A stretch of DNA of 64,000 nt, from NCBI RefSeq assembly GCF_003946265.1, contig NZ_RHNO01000001.1:1-64000 (forward strand). Reading direction: 5' to 3'. Position numbers and translations under genes: made by a program. Position 1 is the first letter of the stretch; each line of letters begins with the position of its first letter. Positions 27,133 to 39,363 of this stretch are shown here, piece after piece. This stretch comes from Levilactobacillus yonginensis. Its GTDB lineage: Bacteria > Bacillota > Bacilli > Lactobacillales > Lactobacillaceae. The notes beneath the pieces were generated by a model, which worked only from the letters and a program-made list of their open reading frames with translations, had not been told where the DNA came from and ran no database searches.

Positions 27133-27372
27133 GCGTGCTCATTTGGCTAAAGATAAACGATAGTCTTGGAAATGTGCATTGGGATGAACGAGCGTTAAAG
27201 CTGATGTTAGTCAACTTTGGCTCCCAGAAAGTCGTCCGTTATTGGCAGGAAAAATAAACCTTACAAGGCGATTAGTTTTGGTGATATACCATTGTATGAT
27301 TTCACCGATATTCCGCAAAATGAAAACATATATTAATTATTGAATAGCATGTACTTTTCTTCGCGACCATGT

Positions 27373-27408
27373 TATAGTGACTTTAGACAGATAGGCGGAT
27401 GTGTTACA
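27373..27408 (+). promoter_or_regulatory. Promoter-proximal element of LPXTG gene 1
   Basis: TATAGT (27373-27378), 4 nt, TTAGACAG, 7 nt, GATGTGTTACA (27398-27408). The same blocks with identical spacing precede LPXTG gene 2 (29449-29484). The -35 is poor, suggesting that an activator is needed. Confidence 0.65.
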
Positions 27409-27428
27409 AAAGTGAAAGGGGTATTACC

Positions 27429-29270
27429 ATGAGTAAAAGGTTGGGGAACAGCTCAAAACAAAAATTGGCAACCTTGGCATTACTAGGTGCCGTGGCAGGA
27501 CTAGGCTACCAAATCGACGTTGCTCAGGCGGATACAGCGGCAACACCCGACCAACAAGCACCCAAGACGACGGTAACTTCACCGGCGGAAAAGACTAATC
27601 AGCTTCAGGATAAGTCGGCTACACTAGGTCGTTCACAGGAAGAACCATCTCAAAATAAATCCGGTAACGTTGAGAAGACACAAGCGGGTGAGAAAACCGA
27701 ACCGCAACCAGAAAAAACGCCAGCAGCATCAGCACCTCAAGCACCGGCTACTCCCGAACAGACAACTCCAGACAAAGTAACCACACCGGCTAAGCACGAT
27801 GCGCCACAGCCAGCTAATCTAGATGTTGCGCAACCACAGCAACCAGCTAAGCAAGCAAGAATGGCAGCACCGGTAGCACCCGTTGATGTTCAGACTGGCG
27901 TTTGGGGCACCAGTAAGTGGACGCTAAATGATCAGGGCACGATGACGATTTTTGCTGGGACGCTGGGCAAGGCGTTTAACCAATTTGACAGCGCTAACGA
28001 CAACATTTTTGGTGCCACTAAGGTGGTCTTTGATGGCACCGCTGGTAAAATTGTTTTGCCGGCTAACGCGAATTCTTTGTTTGCTAGTTTTGAAAAGGTG
28101 ACCGCCTATGAAGGGCTGGATAACGTTGACACCAGTCAAGTTGCGGTGATGAACAATCTCTTTGCTGAGAACCTGGCGTTGACTAGTATTGACCTCAGTA
28201 GCTGGGACTTCAGCCACGTTTCCAACGTAAGTTATCTGTTTGCTGGGCAATCACCGGCCATCTTGGAAGAGATGCAGTTAAAGAGTGTCAAATTAGGCAA
28301 GAGCTTCAATGCTGCCATCAATTTAACGGGGATGTTCCAGAACGCCACGAACTTGACCGACGTGGATTTTGCAAACTGGGATCTGAGCCATGCCTTGAAT
28401 ATTCAAAATATGTTAAGTGGCACTGGTTTCAGTACATTAGACGTCAGTGGTTGGCATGTTGACCGCGTGACGGCTACACGGGATGCTTTCTCCAATATGG
28501 CTAATCTGACCACCATTAACTTGGGCGACTGGCAGACCGGTAAAGTGGGGAACGCGATTGGGATGTTTAGAAACGACCCACTATTGACACAACTTAATTT
28601 AACCAACGTTGGTGGTCAATACATCACTAACCTGTTAGACGGAACTACCGGATTATCGCAGCTCGTACTGGGACCGAATACCGTACTGGCCAATGATTAC
28701 GGCAACGTAGCATTGCCAGCAGTTCAAGTGAATGACGACTACACGGGGCTCTGGCAATCGGTTGAAACGGGCGCTACTTACACGAGTGATGAGCTAGTGG
28801 CGACCTACGACGGCGCAACGATGGCCGGCACTTACGTTTGGCAGAAGACGGCACCTAAGCCAGTTACACCGGTTGATCCTGGGACCCCGGTAAATCCAAG
28901 TACGCCAGATGTTGTGACGCCGGCCCCAACTCCGGAAGCGCCAACGCCGGATATCGTTAACGGCGGGGATGCAGCCACCATTGACGACGGTGCGGCAGAT
29001 ACGGTTGCACCTAAGAAGAATGTGAAAGCTGCTCCAGTAACGCCGACGGTTAAGGCATCTGGCCAAGCTGTCAAAGGCACTCGTGCAGCGGTAGCCACAA
29101 CTACGATGCCAACCGCAGCGCCGGCCGCTTCCAAGACGCCGGCACCACAGGCTACACAACAAGCAACGTTGCCCCAAACTGGTGAACAAAAGTCAAGTTG
29201 GTTAGCTGTCGTGGCGGGTGCGCTCAGCATGAGCTTACTTGGCGCACACTGGTTCAAACGACAAGATTAA
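27429..29270 (+). CDS. LPXTG cell-wall-anchored surface protein with DUF285/BspA-like repeats (paralogue 1)
   Basis: 613 aa, predicted secreted and sortase-anchored. The signal peptide ends near AQA (about residue 36). A Pro/Thr/Gln-rich region follows (about 37-150), then a leucine-rich DUF285-type domain with units such as LTSIDLSSWDFSHVSNVSYLF (about 155-450). A Pro-rich stalk leads to the sorting signal LPQTGEQ, membrane helix and KRQD tail. DUF285 proteins are often adhesins, but its ligand is unknown. I start at ATG 27429 after AAAGGGG; an in-frame ATG at 27399 lies within the shared promoter motif. Tandem paralogue of 29503. Confidence 0.9.
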   Translation: MSKRLGNSSKQKLATLALLGAVAGLGYQIDVAQADTAATPDQQAPKTTVTSPAEKTNQLQDKSATLGRSQEEPSQNKSGNVEKTQAGEKTEPQPEKTPAASAPQAPATPEQTTPDKVTTPAKHDAPQPANLDVAQPQQPAKQARMAAPVAPVDVQTGVWGTSKWTLNDQGTMTIFAGTLGKAFNQFDSANDNIFGATKVVFDGTAGKIVLPANANSLFASFEKVTAYEGLDNVDTSQVAVMNNLFAENLALTSIDLSSWDFSHVSNVSYLFAGQSPAILEEMQLKSVKLGKSFNAAINLTGMFQNATNLTDVDFANWDLSHALNIQNMLSGTGFSTLDVSGWHVDRVTATRDAFSNMANLTTINLGDWQTGKVGNAIGMFRNDPLLTQLNLTNVGGQYITNLLDGTTGLSQLVLGPNTVLANDYGNVALPAVQVNDDYTGLWQSVETGATYTSDELVATYDGATMAGTYVWQKTAPKPVTPVDPGTPVNPSTPDVVTPAPTPEAPTPDIVNGGDAATIDDGAADTVAPKKNVKAAPVTPTVKASGQAVKGTRAAVATTTMPTAAPAASKTPAPQATQQATLPQTGEQKSSWLAVVAGALSMSLLGAHWFKRQD

Positions 29271-29293
29271 TTAAGAAAGATAATTTGTAAACC

Positions 29294-29328
29294 AAAAGGC
29301 GTTGGAATCCTTGTTCCAACGCCTTTTT
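29294..29328 (+). terminator. Intrinsic terminator of LPXTG gene 1
   Basis: AAAAGGCGTTGGAA/TTCCAACGCCTTTT, a perfect 14-bp stem, then T-run. Confidence 0.92.
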
Positions 29329-29347
29329 GGTGCCAATTTAGTTAGAA

Positions 29348-29363
29348 TGTTTCCCATGAAACA
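29348..29363. other. Degenerate parS-like site 3
   Basis: TGTTTCCCATGAAACA, two differences from the parS consensus, in the gap between the two LPXTG genes. Weaker than the other sites. Confidence 0.4.
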
Positions 29364-29448
29364 TGGTTCGCGTGAGAAACTAATTCGACAATCAGTAAAA
29401 TCGGCACTTAATTGATTCGTATGGGTAGATTTTTGGTCATTTCGCGCC

Positions 29449-29484
29449 TATACTATTGTTAGACAGTTTGACTGATGTGTAACA
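29449..29484 (+). promoter_or_regulatory. Promoter-proximal element of LPXTG gene 2
   Basis: TATACT, 4 nt, TTAGACAG, 7 nt, GATGTGTAACA; same block spacing as at 27373-27408, while the surrounding sequence differs. Confidence 0.65.
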
Positions 29485-29502
29485 TGTTTAGGGGGATTAA
29501 TC

Positions 29503-31659
29503 ATGACCAAAAAGTTGAGGAACGCGACAAAAACAAGGTTGACAACCTTAGCAATCATGGGGGCCATCGCAGGGGTTGGTGTCCAGGTGAATACGGCATA
29601 TGCTGACACAAATGTAAGCGCAAACAATTCTGACAATCAGGTCAGTGATTCAGCAGTCAGCACGGCTAACGACACAACGAAACAATCAGCAACTCTAGCT
29701 AGTTCACAATCAAAACCAACTAACGAAGAAGATACTCAGAAAACGTTAGCTAAACCGACTAGCGACGCTGTGCCAGAACCGGTAACGCCAGCGGCCGATA
29801 AGCCAACCACCACCCCTGCTCAACCAGCAGGGGCAACTGGTGAATCGACGACCAAGCCAGTGGCAACGGTCACGACGTCGACACCCAAGAAAGTGGTCGG
29901 TGAGGAACAGGCTGCGCCCAAGGTTGCTCAGGTTAACCGGGGCAAGATGGCTCGAGCGATGGCGCCCGTTGCGCCAGAGAGCCTCGCGGATACTGCGGCG
30001 GCAGCCCCAACGATTGTTAAGACGGGGATGTCTGGGACTAGTAAATGGACGATGGATAGCGATGGCGTGATGACCTTTTATGCTGGGACGCTAGCCAACA
30101 TCGGGCGGTACCATAGTGCCACTAAAGTCGTTTTTGATGGTAGTCAGGGGAAAGTTGTCCTGCCAGCAAACTGTCTGATGTTGTTCTGGGACTGGGAAAA
30201 CGTGACGGCGTTTGAGGGGATGGACAACGTCGATGCCAGTCAAGTTAAGAACATGACGCAGATGTTCAGCCAGGACTTCGCCTTGAAGAGCTTGGATCTC
30301 AGCAGCTGGGATCTGAGTAATGTGACGGATATGACCGAGGCCTTTAGTGGCCGCACCTATGATCCAGAGACCAATACAAACTACAAGATGGGACTGGTTG
30401 ACCTTAAATTAGGGACGACTACCAGCAACGTGAAGACCATGGATTCGATGCTTTTCAACGATGATGCTTTAACCACGGTCGATGCGGCTGACTGGGACGT
30501 CAGCAGTTTGACCTCAGCCGCTTCACTATTTTATGGGACCGCCATTGCTAACCTGAACTTATCTGGCTGGCAGACCAGTAATCTGAAATCGTTGAGTGGA
30601 ACCTTTGCTAGTATGCCAAACCTGACATCATTTGACGGGAGTAACTGGGATACCAGCAGTGTCGCTATCTTCGTTCAGGCCTTTGAAGGGGATCCATTAC
30701 TGACGACGGCTAAGGTCAGTGATTGGGACGTTTCTGGTGGCAGTCAGTTCACGAGTATGTTCCACAATGATCCGTCGTTGGCTACGCTGGACTTGAGCCA
30801 ATGGCATCCCACGATTAACTACATGATCCGGATGTTTGCTGGAGACACGGCCTTAACGAAATTAGATCTCTCTGGGTTTAACTTGGCGGCCGTGGACGGT
30901 GATCACGTTAATGAGGCCTTAGATGGGACAACTGGGTTGCAGGAATTAATTTTAGGACCGAATACACATCTGGGAGACACAACGACTGGTAATGTGTTAT
31001 TACCAGACCTCCCCGTGACGGACGTTTACACGGGCCTCTGGCAAGCAGTTGGGACTGGAACGGTTGATAAGCCTAACGGTGCCACCTTCACAAGTGCACA
31101 ACTTAATACCGGTTACGATGGTAGTACCATGGCGGACACGTACGTTTGGCAAAAAGTGGCGACCCCAACTGACCCTGACACTAATCCCGGTGGTGGGGGC
31201 AATACTGGGACGCCGACTGAACCGGAAACGCCGGCCCCAACGCCGGAACCAGATACCAATACCAATGAAGGCGATAAGTTTTCTGGCGGCAATGGTGCCA
31301 ACGTAGGGAGCACAACGGTTAAAAAACCGACAACCAAAGCACCGGTTAAGCAAACCAAAACCAAGAAGAATCAGTCAGAAGTTGTGATGAGCGGGTCAGC
31401 GGCTAAGATTCGCAACCGAACTGCTGGTCAGGCCGCAATCGTGAACGGTTTAGCAGCCGTAAAGGTGGGCCATGGCACGCAGCAGCCAGGGCAGCAGCAA
31501 CTGAGTGCACAGCCAAAGTCATCGTCAACTGCAACGCAGCAACGGGCGGCCACGACCTTGCCACAAACCAACGAACAAAAGTCGAGTTGGGTTGCCGTAT
31601 TAGCAGGCTTCCTGGGACTAAGTTTGTTGAGTATTCACTGGTTTAAGCGGCAAGATTAG
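29503..31659 (+). CDS. LPXTG cell-wall-anchored surface protein with DUF285/BspA-like repeats (paralogue 2)
   Basis: 718 aa with the same plan as its neighbour. The signal peptide ends near AYA (about residue 34), a Thr/Pro/Ala-rich linker follows (35-165), then a longer DUF285 array (about 170-510; units such as LKSLDLSSWDLSNVTDMTEAF), a Pro/Glu stalk with a short Gly-rich stretch, and the sorting signal LPQTNEQ with hydrophobic helix and KRQD. The Asn at the fifth position is tolerated in the LPQTxE motif used by lactobacilli. AGGGGG precedes the ATG. Probably a duplication partner of gene 1. Confidence 0.9.
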   Translation: MTKKLRNATKTRLTTLAIMGAIAGVGVQVNTAYADTNVSANNSDNQVSDSAVSTANDTTKQSATLASSQSKPTNEEDTQKTLAKPTSDAVPEPVTPAADKPTTTPAQPAGATGESTTKPVATVTTSTPKKVVGEEQAAPKVAQVNRGKMARAMAPVAPESLADTAAAAPTIVKTGMSGTSKWTMDSDGVMTFYAGTLANIGRYHSATKVVFDGSQGKVVLPANCLMLFWDWENVTAFEGMDNVDASQVKNMTQMFSQDFALKSLDLSSWDLSNVTDMTEAFSGRTYDPETNTNYKMGLVDLKLGTTTSNVKTMDSMLFNDDALTTVDAADWDVSSLTSAASLFYGTAIANLNLSGWQTSNLKSLSGTFASMPNLTSFDGSNWDTSSVAIFVQAFEGDPLLTTAKVSDWDVSGGSQFTSMFHNDPSLATLDLSQWHPTINYMIRMFAGDTALTKLDLSGFNLAAVDGDHVNEALDGTTGLQELILGPNTHLGDTTTGNVLLPDLPVTDVYTGLWQAVGTGTVDKPNGATFTSAQLNTGYDGSTMADTYVWQKVATPTDPDTNPGGGGNTGTPTEPETPAPTPEPDTNTNEGDKFSGGNGANVGSTTVKKPTTKAPVKQTKTKKNQSEVVMSGSAAKIRNRTAGQAAIVNGLAAVKVGHGTQQPGQQQLSAQPKSSSTATQQRAATTLPQTNEQKSSWVAVLAGFLGLSLLSIHWFKRQD

Positions 31660-31673
31660 AAAAGTCTATTTGA

Positions 31674-31711
31674 TAGGGCGATCATCCAGAAATTGAGATG
31701 GGCGTCCTTTT
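31674..31711 (+). terminator. Intrinsic terminator of LPXTG gene 2
   Basis: AGG-CG-CATC / GATG-CG-CCT interrupted stem followed by TTTT. Confidence 0.65.
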
Positions 31712-31863
31712 AGTTTGGTCAATTTTTTTGGGCGGGAAGGCGAGATGTTTTACGATTAAATTTGTATTTAATATTTTCTTTATTGTAAATAGTTTAACGG
31801 GTTTACTTTTTTGGCGGGATTTGCTACTCTGGGAGTAACTTATTTACGGATGAAAGTGGGGCG

Positions 31864-32670
31864 ATGGGTGTCATGGCGGATGATTTATCACAGGCTGGCC
31901 AGTTACTAGGTCGCGGCTTGCGAGCGCGGCGGTTGGAGTTAGGAATCGCACAAAATGTTTTGGCGACAGGTCTGTGTGCCCAGTCGCTGATCAACAAGAT
32001 TGAACAGGGGCGAGGAATCCCCAATGCCATTTTGTTAACCCAACTTTGTGAGCGTCTACGGTTACCCATGAAGCAGGCGTTGCGTCAGAACTATCCGATT
32101 CGTCGTCAGCCAACGTTTAGTCGTAAGGTCCACAAGTTATACCAGGCCGGCCGCTTCGCTGAGGTGGTGGCCTACATGGACGATTCCGACCTACTGCCCA
32201 CGCTAAAAACGGATGAGGACTTAAAGACTTATTATTACTACTATGGTTGGGCCCTCTATCAGGCAACTCAGGAGTCGACAGGTGCGTTGCAACACGTTCG
32301 GACAGCCTTGACGATGATGGTGCCCCAGCGGCCGACCCAGTATCGGTCGTTGGAGGTTTTACTGATTGCGGTGGAAAATTATTTGGTAGCGGCCAGCCAA
32401 CCCGGAAACTTTGAAGGCTTTGAGCGAGCACTAGCCATTATGCAGACGGAGCGGGTCATGGATCCTGATGAAAATTTAAATGTCGTTTTCTATCAGTATG
32501 CGCAGGTCTTGTTGCAGCAGGGTCAAGTCAACCGAGCTGTTCAGACCATTAGTGCAGGTGTTAACTGGGCGACCTCCCACGATTCACATTACCTGTTGGC
32601 TGACGATTACACCTTGTTAGCGCAGGCTTATCTACAGGCTCATCAAAGTATGGCCGTTGCGCAAAGTTAG
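31864..32670 (+). CDS. HTH-TPR transcriptional regulator (Rgg/RRNPP-like)
   Basis: 268 aa. An N-terminal XRE-type helix-turn-helix (about residues 14-66, RARRLELGIAQNVLATGLCAQSLINKIEQGRGIP) is followed by an all-helical region resembling TPR repeats. This is the layout of Rgg/PlcR-type regulators, which respond to short peptides. Start at ATG 31864 or ATG 31873; both have a G-rich ribosome site. It lies just downstream of the two LPXTG genes in the same direction, so it is the obvious candidate to control them. No pheromone gene is recognisable nearby. Confidence 0.72.
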   Translation: MGVMADDLSQAGQLLGRGLRARRLELGIAQNVLATGLCAQSLINKIEQGRGIPNAILLTQLCERLRLPMKQALRQNYPIRRQPTFSRKVHKLYQAGRFAEVVAYMDDSDLLPTLKTDEDLKTYYYYYGWALYQATQESTGALQHVRTALTMMVPQRPTQYRSLEVLLIAVENYLVAASQPGNFEGFERALAIMQTERVMDPDENLNVVFYQYAQVLLQQGQVNRAVQTISAGVNWATSHDSHYLLADDYTLLAQAYLQAHQSMAVAQS

Positions 32671-37039: not shown

Positions 37040-38644
37040 TTATTTCCAGTAAGCGTATTGGTATTTAGCATCGTGCAGGAGCGTGTAGGTCAGACCGCCC
37101 ACCTTGCTGGAGACCAACTTAGCTTCTGAAGGTTGGTAAACGGGGATGTAGCCTTTGACTGCCATTAAGCGCTTGTCGGCGGCCATCAGACCGTTGTAGC
37201 GTGCCAAACCAGTCTTACTGTTGGCGTCGTTCAGCAATTCGTTGAACTGATCGTCGTTCCAACCGGTGAAGTTCACGGTGTTGGTCTTGGCAGCTAGGCT
37301 GAGGTAATCAGAGGCGTCCAACCAACTGCTGGACCAGCCGGTAAGGTTTAGTTCAAATGTCCCGGCAAAGTCACGAGCGACGTGTTGGGCGTGAGGGATT
37401 GAGGTCACGTTGACCGTCAAGCCCTTAAAATTCTTCTGCATAACTGATTGCAGGTAGGTGCCAACGTGTTTGTCATCATCGGTATCATCGGTCAGAAGGT
37501 TTAACGTGACCTTAGTCTTCCCAGTTTCCTTGAGGTACTTGGCCCAGTATTCCTTAGCCTTAGTGACGTCTTGAGGTAACAGGTTGCCAACTTGAGCGGC
37601 CATATCTTGACCAGTCTTGGGATTGGCTTGATCACCACGAGGAACGGCGCTTAGCGCTGGCTTGGAGCCATCTTGAAGGACCTTGTTGGTCAACGTTGAC
37701 CGGCTCATGACGAGTGAAACAGCTTGACGCAGGTTTTCTGAATCCGTTGCTTTCTTCTTACTGTTGACGTAAAGGTATTGCAACCGGCCTAACAAGTGGG
37801 TGTGAAGCTGCTTGTCGTTAGCATTGGCCCGGACGTACTGGCCACTAACCGTGGTTTCTTGGATCTTACCGCTCTTAAAAAGATTGGAAGCGGTGCTTTC
37901 GTCCTTGGTGACGGATACGGCGACTTTCTTGATCTTAACGTTCTGAGCGTTCCAATAATGGGTGTTCTTCACGTAAGTCCATGAGGAATTACTACCAGTC
38001 CAGCCAACCAGCTTGTAGGCACCATTGCTGACGGTCTTAGCGGCGCTAGTCCCGTACTTCTGCCCGTATTTCTGAACGGCGTCGGTGTTCAGTGGATAGT
38101 AACCAGCGACTAAGTCATCGAAGTAGGGAACCGCCTTAGTTAATTGAAATTGGAGCTTAGTTTTGCTTAACGCCTTGACCCCTAATTTATCAGGGGTGTC
38201 GGTGCCTTTCTGAACGGCATCGTAGTTTTTAAAGGCACTCAGGAGACTGGCATATTGGGCCTTGGTCTTGGGGTCGACCCACCGTCGCATGGAAGTCACG
38301 AAGTCTTGAGCGGTAACTGGTTGGCCGTTGGACCACTTGGCATTCTTCCTTAACGTGAACGTGTAGGTCTTACCATTGTTGGTGGGTTTAACCATCTTGG
38401 TGGCGACGCCGGCGGTTAATTTGCCGGCTTTGTTATAGGTATAGAGGCCTTCCATTGTTTGGGTGATGACGTTACCACTATTGGTATCGGTCGACTTGTT
38501 TGGGTCGGCGGTGGCGGGTTCACTGGCCAGCGTGACGTTTAACGTTTTGTTCTTGTTGGTCGTATTCCCAGATGCTTGACCACAGGCACTGAGAGTGACG
38601 AGTAATAATAAAGATGCGGGCATTGCCCAAACTGAATGTTTCAT
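37040..38644 (-). CDS. OppA-like oligopeptide-binding lipoprotein (paralogue 1)
   Basis: 534-aa extracellular solute-binding protein, SBP family 5, which captures oligopeptides for an ABC importer. Lipoprotein signal with lipobox LSAC (Cys near residue 21), then LNVTLASEPATADPNKSTDTNSG and the family landmarks KNAKWSNGQPVTAQDFVTSM. No permease or ATPase genes are nearby, so it must use a system encoded elsewhere. Start ATG 38644 because AGGAGG is 9 nt upstream. The TTG at 38653 would leave no spacing. The start codon is inside a parS-like palindrome. Close paralogue of 51388-52998. Confidence 0.92.
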   Translation of the reverse strand: MKHSVWAMPASLLLLVTLSACGQASGNTTNKNKTLNVTLASEPATADPNKSTDTNSGNVITQTMEGLYTYNKAGKLTAGVATKMVKPTNNGKTYTFTLRKNAKWSNGQPVTAQDFVTSMRRWVDPKTKAQYASLLSAFKNYDAVQKGTDTPDKLGVKALSKTKLQFQLTKAVPYFDDLVAGYYPLNTDAVQKYGQKYGTSAAKTVSNGAYKLVGWTGSNSSWTYVKNTHYWNAQNVKIKKVAVSVTKDESTASNLFKSGKIQETTVSGQYVRANANDKQLHTHLLGRLQYLYVNSKKKATDSENLRQAVSLVMSRSTLTNKVLQDGSKPALSAVPRGDQANPKTGQDMAAQVGNLLPQDVTKAKEYWAKYLKETGKTKVTLNLLTDDTDDDKHVGTYLQSVMQKNFKGLTVNVTSIPHAQHVARDFAGTFELNLTGWSSSWLDASDYLSLAAKTNTVNFTGWNDDQFNELLNDANSKTGLARYNGLMAADKRLMAVKGYIPVYQPSEAKLVSSKVGGLTYTLLHDAKYQYAYWK

Positions 38645-38652
38645 GTGAAACA
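38637..38652. other. parS-like site 4 spanning the oppA start codon
   Basis: TGTTTCATGTGAAACA (minus strand reads TGTTTCACATGAAACA), one change from consensus. It lies between the ribosome site and codon 3 of the oppA-like gene and includes its ATG. Confidence 0.75.
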
Positions 38653-38690
38653 ACCTCCTAGATTCAATTGATTAGAAGTGATTAGCGGAG

Positions 38691-39010
38691 AAATAAAAAG
38701 CACCCCTACAGAAAATGTTTCTCTGTAAGGGTGCAGTTCGCACGGTACCACCTTAGTTTTTGCTACTCAAAAAGTAGCCTTATCTATGAACGGCGGGCTC
38801 CTAGAGGACGAGCCTCAAAAGCTAGGAACTTTTGGGAAACGACCACTCCCGCGATTCACTGCATTGATAACGGATGCTTCCGGTATAAACTTACTTGAAT
38901 TTCAGCTAACAGCTCCGAAGGGATGTTCATGCTAAGAATCTTGACCCGCTCTCACTTAACCGGGCTCGCTGACAAGATCGTTCAGCACTACTGGACTTCA
39001 TCATCACTTT
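38691..39010 (-). promoter_or_regulatory. T-box leader of the oppA-amidohydrolase operon, predicted Ile-specific
   Basis: Minus strand. The T-box sequence AAGGTGGTACCGTGCG is at 38739-38754. The terminator stem GCACCCTTACAGA/TCTGTAGGGGTGC with T-run is at 38691-38734. Stem I starts at AGTAG (38988-38992), with helix TGCT/AGCA. Its 3' side reads TGAAC-ATC, placing specifier ATC (Ile) at 38922-38924 by analogy with the GAA-N-codon layout of known T-boxes. Uncharged tRNA should allow read-through. Confidence 0.88.
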
Positions 39011-39363
39011 TTAATTTTCTAATCAATTGTTAATAATTGCTAGTTTAGCACCGAAATTTGTTTTGTCAACGGTGAATTTGAAAAAAAGGCGCGCCATTTT
39101 TAGTGGTGGTTAGTCGAGGGTCTACAGGAAGTATGGTTGGGTGGTGCGGGACAAGTGTGATAGTAGCAGCAATGTAAGCGGTAACGTGTGGCGGCTAATT
39201 TTCCGGACCATTCACTGGATACGTGAGGTAGTTTGGGAGTCAGCAAAATTTATTTCTAACGATGGTTGCCAGTATTTTTAGGCTAGTTACCCGGTAAAAC
39301 CGGCCCCAGGAGGTTGGAAAATGAGAAAGACGGCAGATGCTGATGGCAAAAATGTTGATTATC

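Follow-up and report, generated by a model that had tools for sequence, protein, structure and literature searches.

Two genes for wall-anchored surface proteins in Levilactobacillus yonginensis carry the same short bipartite element at their predicted transcription start sites, and in relatives this start-site element accompanies one subfamily of such genes, the LPQT-anchored DUF285 genes. The window analysed here is a stretch of 64,000 nucleotides (nt; assembly GCF_003946265.1, contig NZ_RHNO01000001.1, positions 1 to 64,000 of the forward strand); it holds gyrB-gyrA, the two DUF285 genes, a regulator gene referred to here as REG, rpsF and ssb (housekeeping names assigned by eye). The element occurs independently of the presence of the neighbouring REG. 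With moderate confidence, we interpret it as a DNA operator that overlaps the start site of the LPQT-anchored DUF285 genes and is probably read by a repressor encoded elsewhere.

A common element at two promoters and in their relatives

The promoters and genes concerned are the following:

27350..27355, plus strand: -35 hexamer TGTACT of gene 1 (3/6 to consensus, 17-nt spacer)
27373..27378, plus strand: -10 hexamer TATAGT of gene 1, with TG-N extension (extended -10)
27383..27408, plus strand: start-site element copy 1, TTAGACAG-N7-GATGTGTTACA
27429..29270, plus strand: gene 1, 613-amino-acid (aa) DUF285 (PARCEL-repeat) surface protein with LPQTG anchor (Pfam PF03382 and PF00746 above cut-off; TIGR02167, TIGR01167)
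29426..29431, plus strand: -35 hexamer TAGATT of gene 2 (3/6 to consensus, 17-nt spacer)
29449..29454, plus strand: -10 hexamer TATACT of gene 2
29459..29484, plus strand: start-site element copy 2, TTAGACAG-N7-GATGTGTAACA (one mismatch to the genus search pattern given below)
29503..31659, plus strand: gene 2, 718-aa DUF285 surface protein with LPQTN anchor (Pfam PF03382; TIGR02167, TIGR01167)

Both proteins combine DUF285 repeats with a C-terminal LPXTG-type sorting signal and thus belong to the wall-anchored class. PF03382 scores 69.1 bits in gene 1 and 95.6 bits in gene 2 (cut-off 25), and TIGR01167 scores 26.2 and 18.6 bits, respectively (cut-off 15.9); no PF00746 match is listed for gene 2 in the Pfam scan of the window proteins. 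The nearest named relative found is L. tongjiangensis (89% identity for gene 2). In their PF03382, TIGR02167 and LPXTG-type matches, the two proteins resemble the known DUF285/BspA-like (PARCEL-repeat) LPXTG surface proteins and are ordinary by comparison; the novelty is limited to their common start-site element.

The original prediction of two motif copies with identical spacing holds: the layout is TATAGT-4-TTAGACAG-7-GATGTGTTACA at promoter 1 (27373-27408) and TATACT-4-TTAGACAG-7-GATGTGTAACA at promoter 2 (29449-29484). By dinucleotide shuffling, 0.04 matches to TTAGACAG-N7-GATGTGTWACA with up to three mismatches are expected in the window by chance, and none of 100 shuffles gave two. A scan of the whole 2.69-Mb genome, which had been proposed as a check, returned only the two window copies at up to three mismatches; the reversed control pattern gave 2 matches. 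The -35 regions are indeed poor, as TGTACT and TAGATT each agree with TTGACA at three of six positions (counted by hand), and neither DUF285 promoter was reported by an automated promoter scan.

Conservation was followed in a genus sample of 35 Levilactobacillus genomes and a wider sample of 301 family genomes, with subfamily membership set at 300 bits or more to the window proteins. Among the loci fetched, the element lies upstream of 18 of the 20 LPQT-anchored subfamily genes and of only one of 439 other upstream regions, which are neighbours, not a random genome sample, since loci were picked around REG, motif and DUF285 matches. The single match among the 439 is the REG gene of locus L102, where pattern and start codon overlap; no match is present in L101 and L103, which are closely related to it. 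All 16 DUF285 genes outside the subfamily lack the element. The motif is thus a conserved cis-element of the adhesin-like subfamily, and the proposed refutation, its absence from DUF285-LPXTG loci of relatives, is borne out solely for these more distant genes.

Searching the genus sample with the pattern TTANNCAG-N7-GNNRTGTYACA gave 13 exact matches, every one at a subfamily gene. With a slightly wider pattern, 15 exact matches were found in the 301 family genomes (three for the reversed control), ten of them at subfamily genes; the five outside the genus fall within reading frames (four) or upstream of an unrelated gene (one). In the sequence searched, the element is found only in Levilactobacillus at LPQT-anchored DUF285 genes.

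One mismatch in the genus search adds 14 sites, two at the subfamily (one being window copy 2) and 12 elsewhere. Further regulon members among these 12 were considered and rejected, their number being similar to the 15 matches of the reversed control. Nine of the 12 were viewed in context: L133, L142 and L147 lie within a reading frame, L143 on the opposite strand of one and L140 in a long frame free of stops that begins ahead of another gene, and at L134, L138, L145 and L148 no long overlapping frame was seen. By eye, without a family search, no DUF285 gene was recognised at these nine. The other three (L146, L149, L150) have nearly the same words as L148 or L147. The L148 site (G000, contig C34, 108437-108462, minus strand) recurs in three close species between ATP-synthase-epsilon-like and murA-like genes (names by eye) and is probably background.

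Anatomy of the element and what it may do

For a closer description, 18 promoters were aligned without gaps on CAG-N11-TGTNACA, so that nine anchor letters are invariant by construction. The core in relatives is CAG-N7-R-N2-R-TGTNACA; outside the anchor, a purine directly precedes TGT in 18 of 18 rows, and a G stands three bases before that purine in 17. At ten element positions 17 or more rows agree, at nine of them by anchoring. The 26 columns carry 1.27 bits of information on average (effective n 8), and no non-overlapping block among the 100 columns compared exceeds 0.60; the 17 non-anchor columns average 0.89 bits against at most 0.59 under the same mask elsewhere. The reversed pattern occurs in none of the 20 subfamily upstream regions. 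Since the N of TGTNACA is T, A or C, this arm stays palindromic.

The fixed motif first described applies to the window but not beyond: in relatives, the conserved core is smaller and the gap to the -10 box (taken as the nearest TATA(A/C/G)T or TACACT) is 4 nt in ten promoters, 3 nt in two and 0 nt in six. The -35 boxes of relatives are weak but alike, TGTACT, TRGAC(A/T) or TAGATT; at the gene 1 position they read TGTACT, TGGACA, TAGACA, TGGACT or TAGACT. The element lies at or after the transcription start predicted from the -10 box, as had been claimed. In the gap-0 class, the C of CAG is retained although it falls ahead of the base predicted to be transcribed first.

Conserved and overlapping the promoter or its predicted start, the element has two properties expected of a repressor operator. 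The original prediction called its position unusual for an activator site; the position stands, and a downstream, shifting site would suit a repressor better. The variable -10 gap fits steric repression better than contact activation, and the position over the predicted start, the tolerance of a 3-4 nt shift and the preserved pre-start base together favour a DNA site with a steric block. According to this model, a transcription factor encoded elsewhere in the genome would bind the element and block initiation or promoter escape, the conserved weak -35 boxes would cap transcription at a modest rate, and the anchored surface protein would appear only once the factor releases the element. Repressor operators overlapping +1 are a general class in Firmicutes promoters. 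The element resembles them in being short and bipartite and in spanning a weak promoter's start and initially transcribed region; it differs in that its arms are a 7-base-pair palindrome and an unrelated CAG, its spacing from the -10 box varies and its cognate regulator is only putative.

The predicted 5′ leader contains most of the element, shortly before the ribosome-binding site, and the shift of the element relative to the -10 box fits a signal borne on the transcript. An RNA-binding protein or small RNA could therefore read the first ~25 nt and control stability or translation. We consider this unlikely: the gap-0 class keeps the TTACAG-type sequence in six of six rows (the C being part of the anchor), although its TTA and the C of CAG would be untranscribed given a start 7 nt downstream of the -10 box. 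RNAalifold finds no fold common to the 18 leaders (energy 0.0), so that a conserved hairpin is not supported, and Rfam has no match at the element at the gathering threshold.

Alternatively, no regulator might be involved at all, and the element would be the inherited promoter and initially transcribed region of paralogues, perhaps tuned for promoter escape. The genes are indeed paralogues that share a TTAATTGTT-like stretch, TRGAC-like -35 boxes and a 17-nt spacer (by eye). Yet homologues of genes 1 and 2 share only ~40% protein identity and their spacers and leaders are scrambled, while the element columns, non-anchor ones included, are kept; moreover, a generic promoter signal is not expected in one subfamily only. 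This explanation appears improbable, the least likely of those weighed here.

Three further candidates were rejected. An antisense promoter (reverse-strand GTNACA, 16 nt, TAAA(G/T)T in many copies) does not survive reading of the alignment rows by eye: its -10-like part is lost in gene 1 of L099 and in gene 2 of L095 and L100, where CAG and TGTNACA are kept. An upstream open reading frame (ORF) from the ATG in GATGTGT would be in frame with window gene 1 and out of frame with gene 2 and with gene 1 of L098 (by eye). The WalR-type tandem is TGTWAH-N5-TGTWAH, and only one half-site is present at the element (by eye).

It is important to set out what speaks against a repressor operator. No reader protein was found, so that repression is deduced from position alone and the sign of regulation is putative. 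The TGTNACA palindrome is short and the CAG half unlike it, so the site does not resemble a classical two-fold repressor operator, and a role of the single-stranded sequence at the RNA level is possible. Many of the 18 aligned promoters belong to near relatives (hence the effective n of 8, after clustering at 60% identity). Finally, two of the 20 subfamily genes lack the element: L127, the member that diverges most, and the second of the copies in L124 (L. huananensis).

A sister DUF285 subfamily has a start-site palindrome of its own, distinct from the element: in L096, L097, L098 and L099, the LPATG/LPATS-type DUF285 gene after gyrA has GGTCTAGACC one base after TATACT, and L106 has the related CTCTAGACC.

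The neighbouring regulator and the gyrA-rpsF slot

As had been predicted, a regulator follows the gene pair, with a helix-turn-helix (HTH) domain and a predicted all-helical remainder. Its features are:

31773..31801, plus strand: AT-rich element (ATTTAAATAATTGTATATGGTT-like) abutting the REG -35, different from the start-site element
31864..32670, plus strand: REG, 268-aa PlcR-like regulator of HTH and helical-repeat type (Pfam, profile, fold and helix comparison)

Control of the adhesin genes by this neighbour is not supported by the distribution of REG and motif. REG occupies the slot between gyrA and rpsF in 20 of the 35 genomes (one side of the L097, L098, L104 and L108 loci is truncated by a contig end). 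The motif is present in seven of these 20 and in six of the 15 without REG, one of which, G006, is 72% complete; REG and motif do not co-occur (Fisher p = 1.0, counts entered by hand). L. senmaizukei (L121) and L. tangyuanensis (L122) have a motif-bearing gene in the slot with REG absent. In L123-L126 the motif-bearing gene is located elsewhere; acpS- and alr-like genes adjoin it in L123, L124 and L126, where no HTH gene was recognised beside it by eye. Conversely, REG persists in eight genomes where the stretch from gyrA to REG showed no DUF285 gene (L101-L105, L107-L109; L104 starts at a contig end, with its upstream side unseen). Most likely, REG is a separate regulator in the same slot.

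The slot itself is variable, holding zero to three DUF285 genes with REG present or absent (L093-L111, L121, L122). Among other inserts, named by eye, L106 holds ferric-reductase-like and FMN-binding-like genes and L110 a nucleotidase-like gene.

As to its kind, the N-terminal HTH of REG matches PF01381 with 26.7 bits (cut-off 23; Xre/HTH_3 type), and a tetratricopeptide repeat (TPR)-type Pfam match stays below its cut-off. A family profile of 17 sequences, including REG and its unlinked paralogue type REG2, matches PlcR over 2-242 (E 5.5e-14); the window REG alone does so weakly (E 0.0018 over 13-136), with a designed DNA-binding protein ranking above PlcR. An AlphaFold (AF2) model from four sequences is mostly helical and of middling quality (mean predicted local distance difference test, pLDDT, 67.6). 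Its best Foldseek match is PlcR (E 1.4e-3, template modelling score, TM, 0.42), with none under E 0.001; the first six are PlcR and ComR, and PrgX (rank 13) and Rgg2 (rank 16) follow amid unrelated helical-repeat proteins. The profile and fold matches point to a regulator of the PlcR/RRNPP kind, with peptide sensing putative.

The earlier description as a peptide-sensor type is in line with this resemblance to PlcR; no adjacent peptide gene conserved across the REG loci was found. For 17 of the 20 REG genes, short ORFs with a ribosome-binding site were sought in the 250 nt ahead of the gene and as far as 450 nt beyond it, and none is common beyond two or three close relatives. L096 and L098 have a 40-aa ORF near REG in common; L093 and L094 share two short ORFs, one at the place of the predicted terminator after the window's REG (by eye). 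REG-only genomes have ~210 to 300 nt between REG and rpsF. With no conserved peptide gene found across REG loci and no co-occurrence of REG and motif, a peptide-controlled module built around REG is not supported.

The PlcR box is the palindrome TATGNAN4TNCATA. The start-site element is not a PlcR box and does not track REG. REG resembles PlcR-PapR and related RRNPP quorum-sensing systems (PDB 2qfc, 3u3w; RRNPP_detector, PMC10075063) in its N-terminal HTH_3 and a predicted PlcR-like helical C-terminal domain, and the lack of a conserved adjacent peptide gene sets its loci apart. RopB and leaderless communication peptide systems (PMC10518010) combine HTH and TPR-type receptors of Gram-positives, lactic acid bacteria included, with ultrashort peptide genes near the receptor in Firmicutes; REG is alike as a putative receptor of this build in a Gram-positive and differs in having no widely common short ORF at the 17 loci scanned.

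The AT-rich element is strongly conserved at the 19 REG promoters compared (L093-L105, L107-L111), the 20th, L106, being dropped as it lacks this promoter. Clades with a nearly identical AT-rich element differ in the recognition helix of REG. The scoring matrices derive from REG promoters, which makes REG scores high by construction; outside REG, the best scores among 448 upstream regions fall at DUF285 genes (L122, L095, L121). At seven LPATG-type DUF285 promoters the best match is at -49 in five (shuffle P 0.003 to 0.11), and at the subfamily promoters P is ≤0.05 in eight of 19. In the window, gene 1 scores P 0.127 and gene 2 P 0.253. The idea that REG binds one AT-rich element at its own promoter and at those of genes 1 and 2 was rejected, given that five of the eight significant matches are in REG-less genomes and that the helix varies; an AT-rich upstream stretch common to REG and subfamily promoters is possible.

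A broader proposal is that a PlcR-like regulator reads the start-site element, either REG where present or the unlinked REG2, possibly under peptide control. In its favour, family profile and fold both liken REG to PlcR along almost the whole protein, and none of the 13 motif-bearing genomes is without a PlcR-like regulator, REG or REG2, that has an A-Q-S recognition helix; in L. tujiorum this helix is found only on REG2 (L100, L189), in G014 on REG (L099). REG copies without the A-Q helix (L101-L111) are in motif-less genomes, except L100, and the eight AT-rich matches at subfamily promoters count in the same direction, REG-less cases notwithstanding. Against this, the A-Q helix copies L096 and L097 are likewise in motif-less genomes, and REG2 also occurs in motif-less genomes, which makes its presence weak support. 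The predicted recognition helix of REG varies among motif-bearing species while the motif core is constant: L100 (L. tujiorum) keeps both motif copies despite a changed helix. The core pattern is found upstream of one of 20 REG genes (that of L102) and of none of the 26 REG2-type genes checked. Together with the missing co-occurrence and the absence of a peptide gene conserved across REG loci, these points make the proposal doubtful, about on a par with a leader role. A more specific form, in which the widespread and unlinked REG2 would act as a peptide-sensing receptor that reads the +1 element in trans and represses the anchored adhesins, with local REG as a diverged former partner, is less likely still. 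One REG2 paralogue (L193, in G014) appears without an HTH in its open frame, unlike the other copies compared.

Neighbouring features and wider meaning

Apart from the adhesin locus, the window contains a T-box leader (RF00230, 101.4 bits; 38724-39013, minus strand) upstream of a peptide-binding-protein-like gene (37040-38653, minus strand; name by eye), suggesting amino-acid-starvation control of a peptide transporter component.

Among the open-access matches listed, no paper on the start-site element was seen; it is a cis-element of a known kind, new as far as these matches show, and the proteins and regulator type are ordinary. If the operator interpretation is correct, the element would provide a sharply defined, genome-searchable regulatory signature for one wall-anchored protein family in food lactobacilli, and two promoters in one strain would offer a clean experimental handle for identifying the factor behind the on-off switching of surface adhesins. 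It would also mean that a regulator adjoining adhesin genes need not be the one that reads their common motif.

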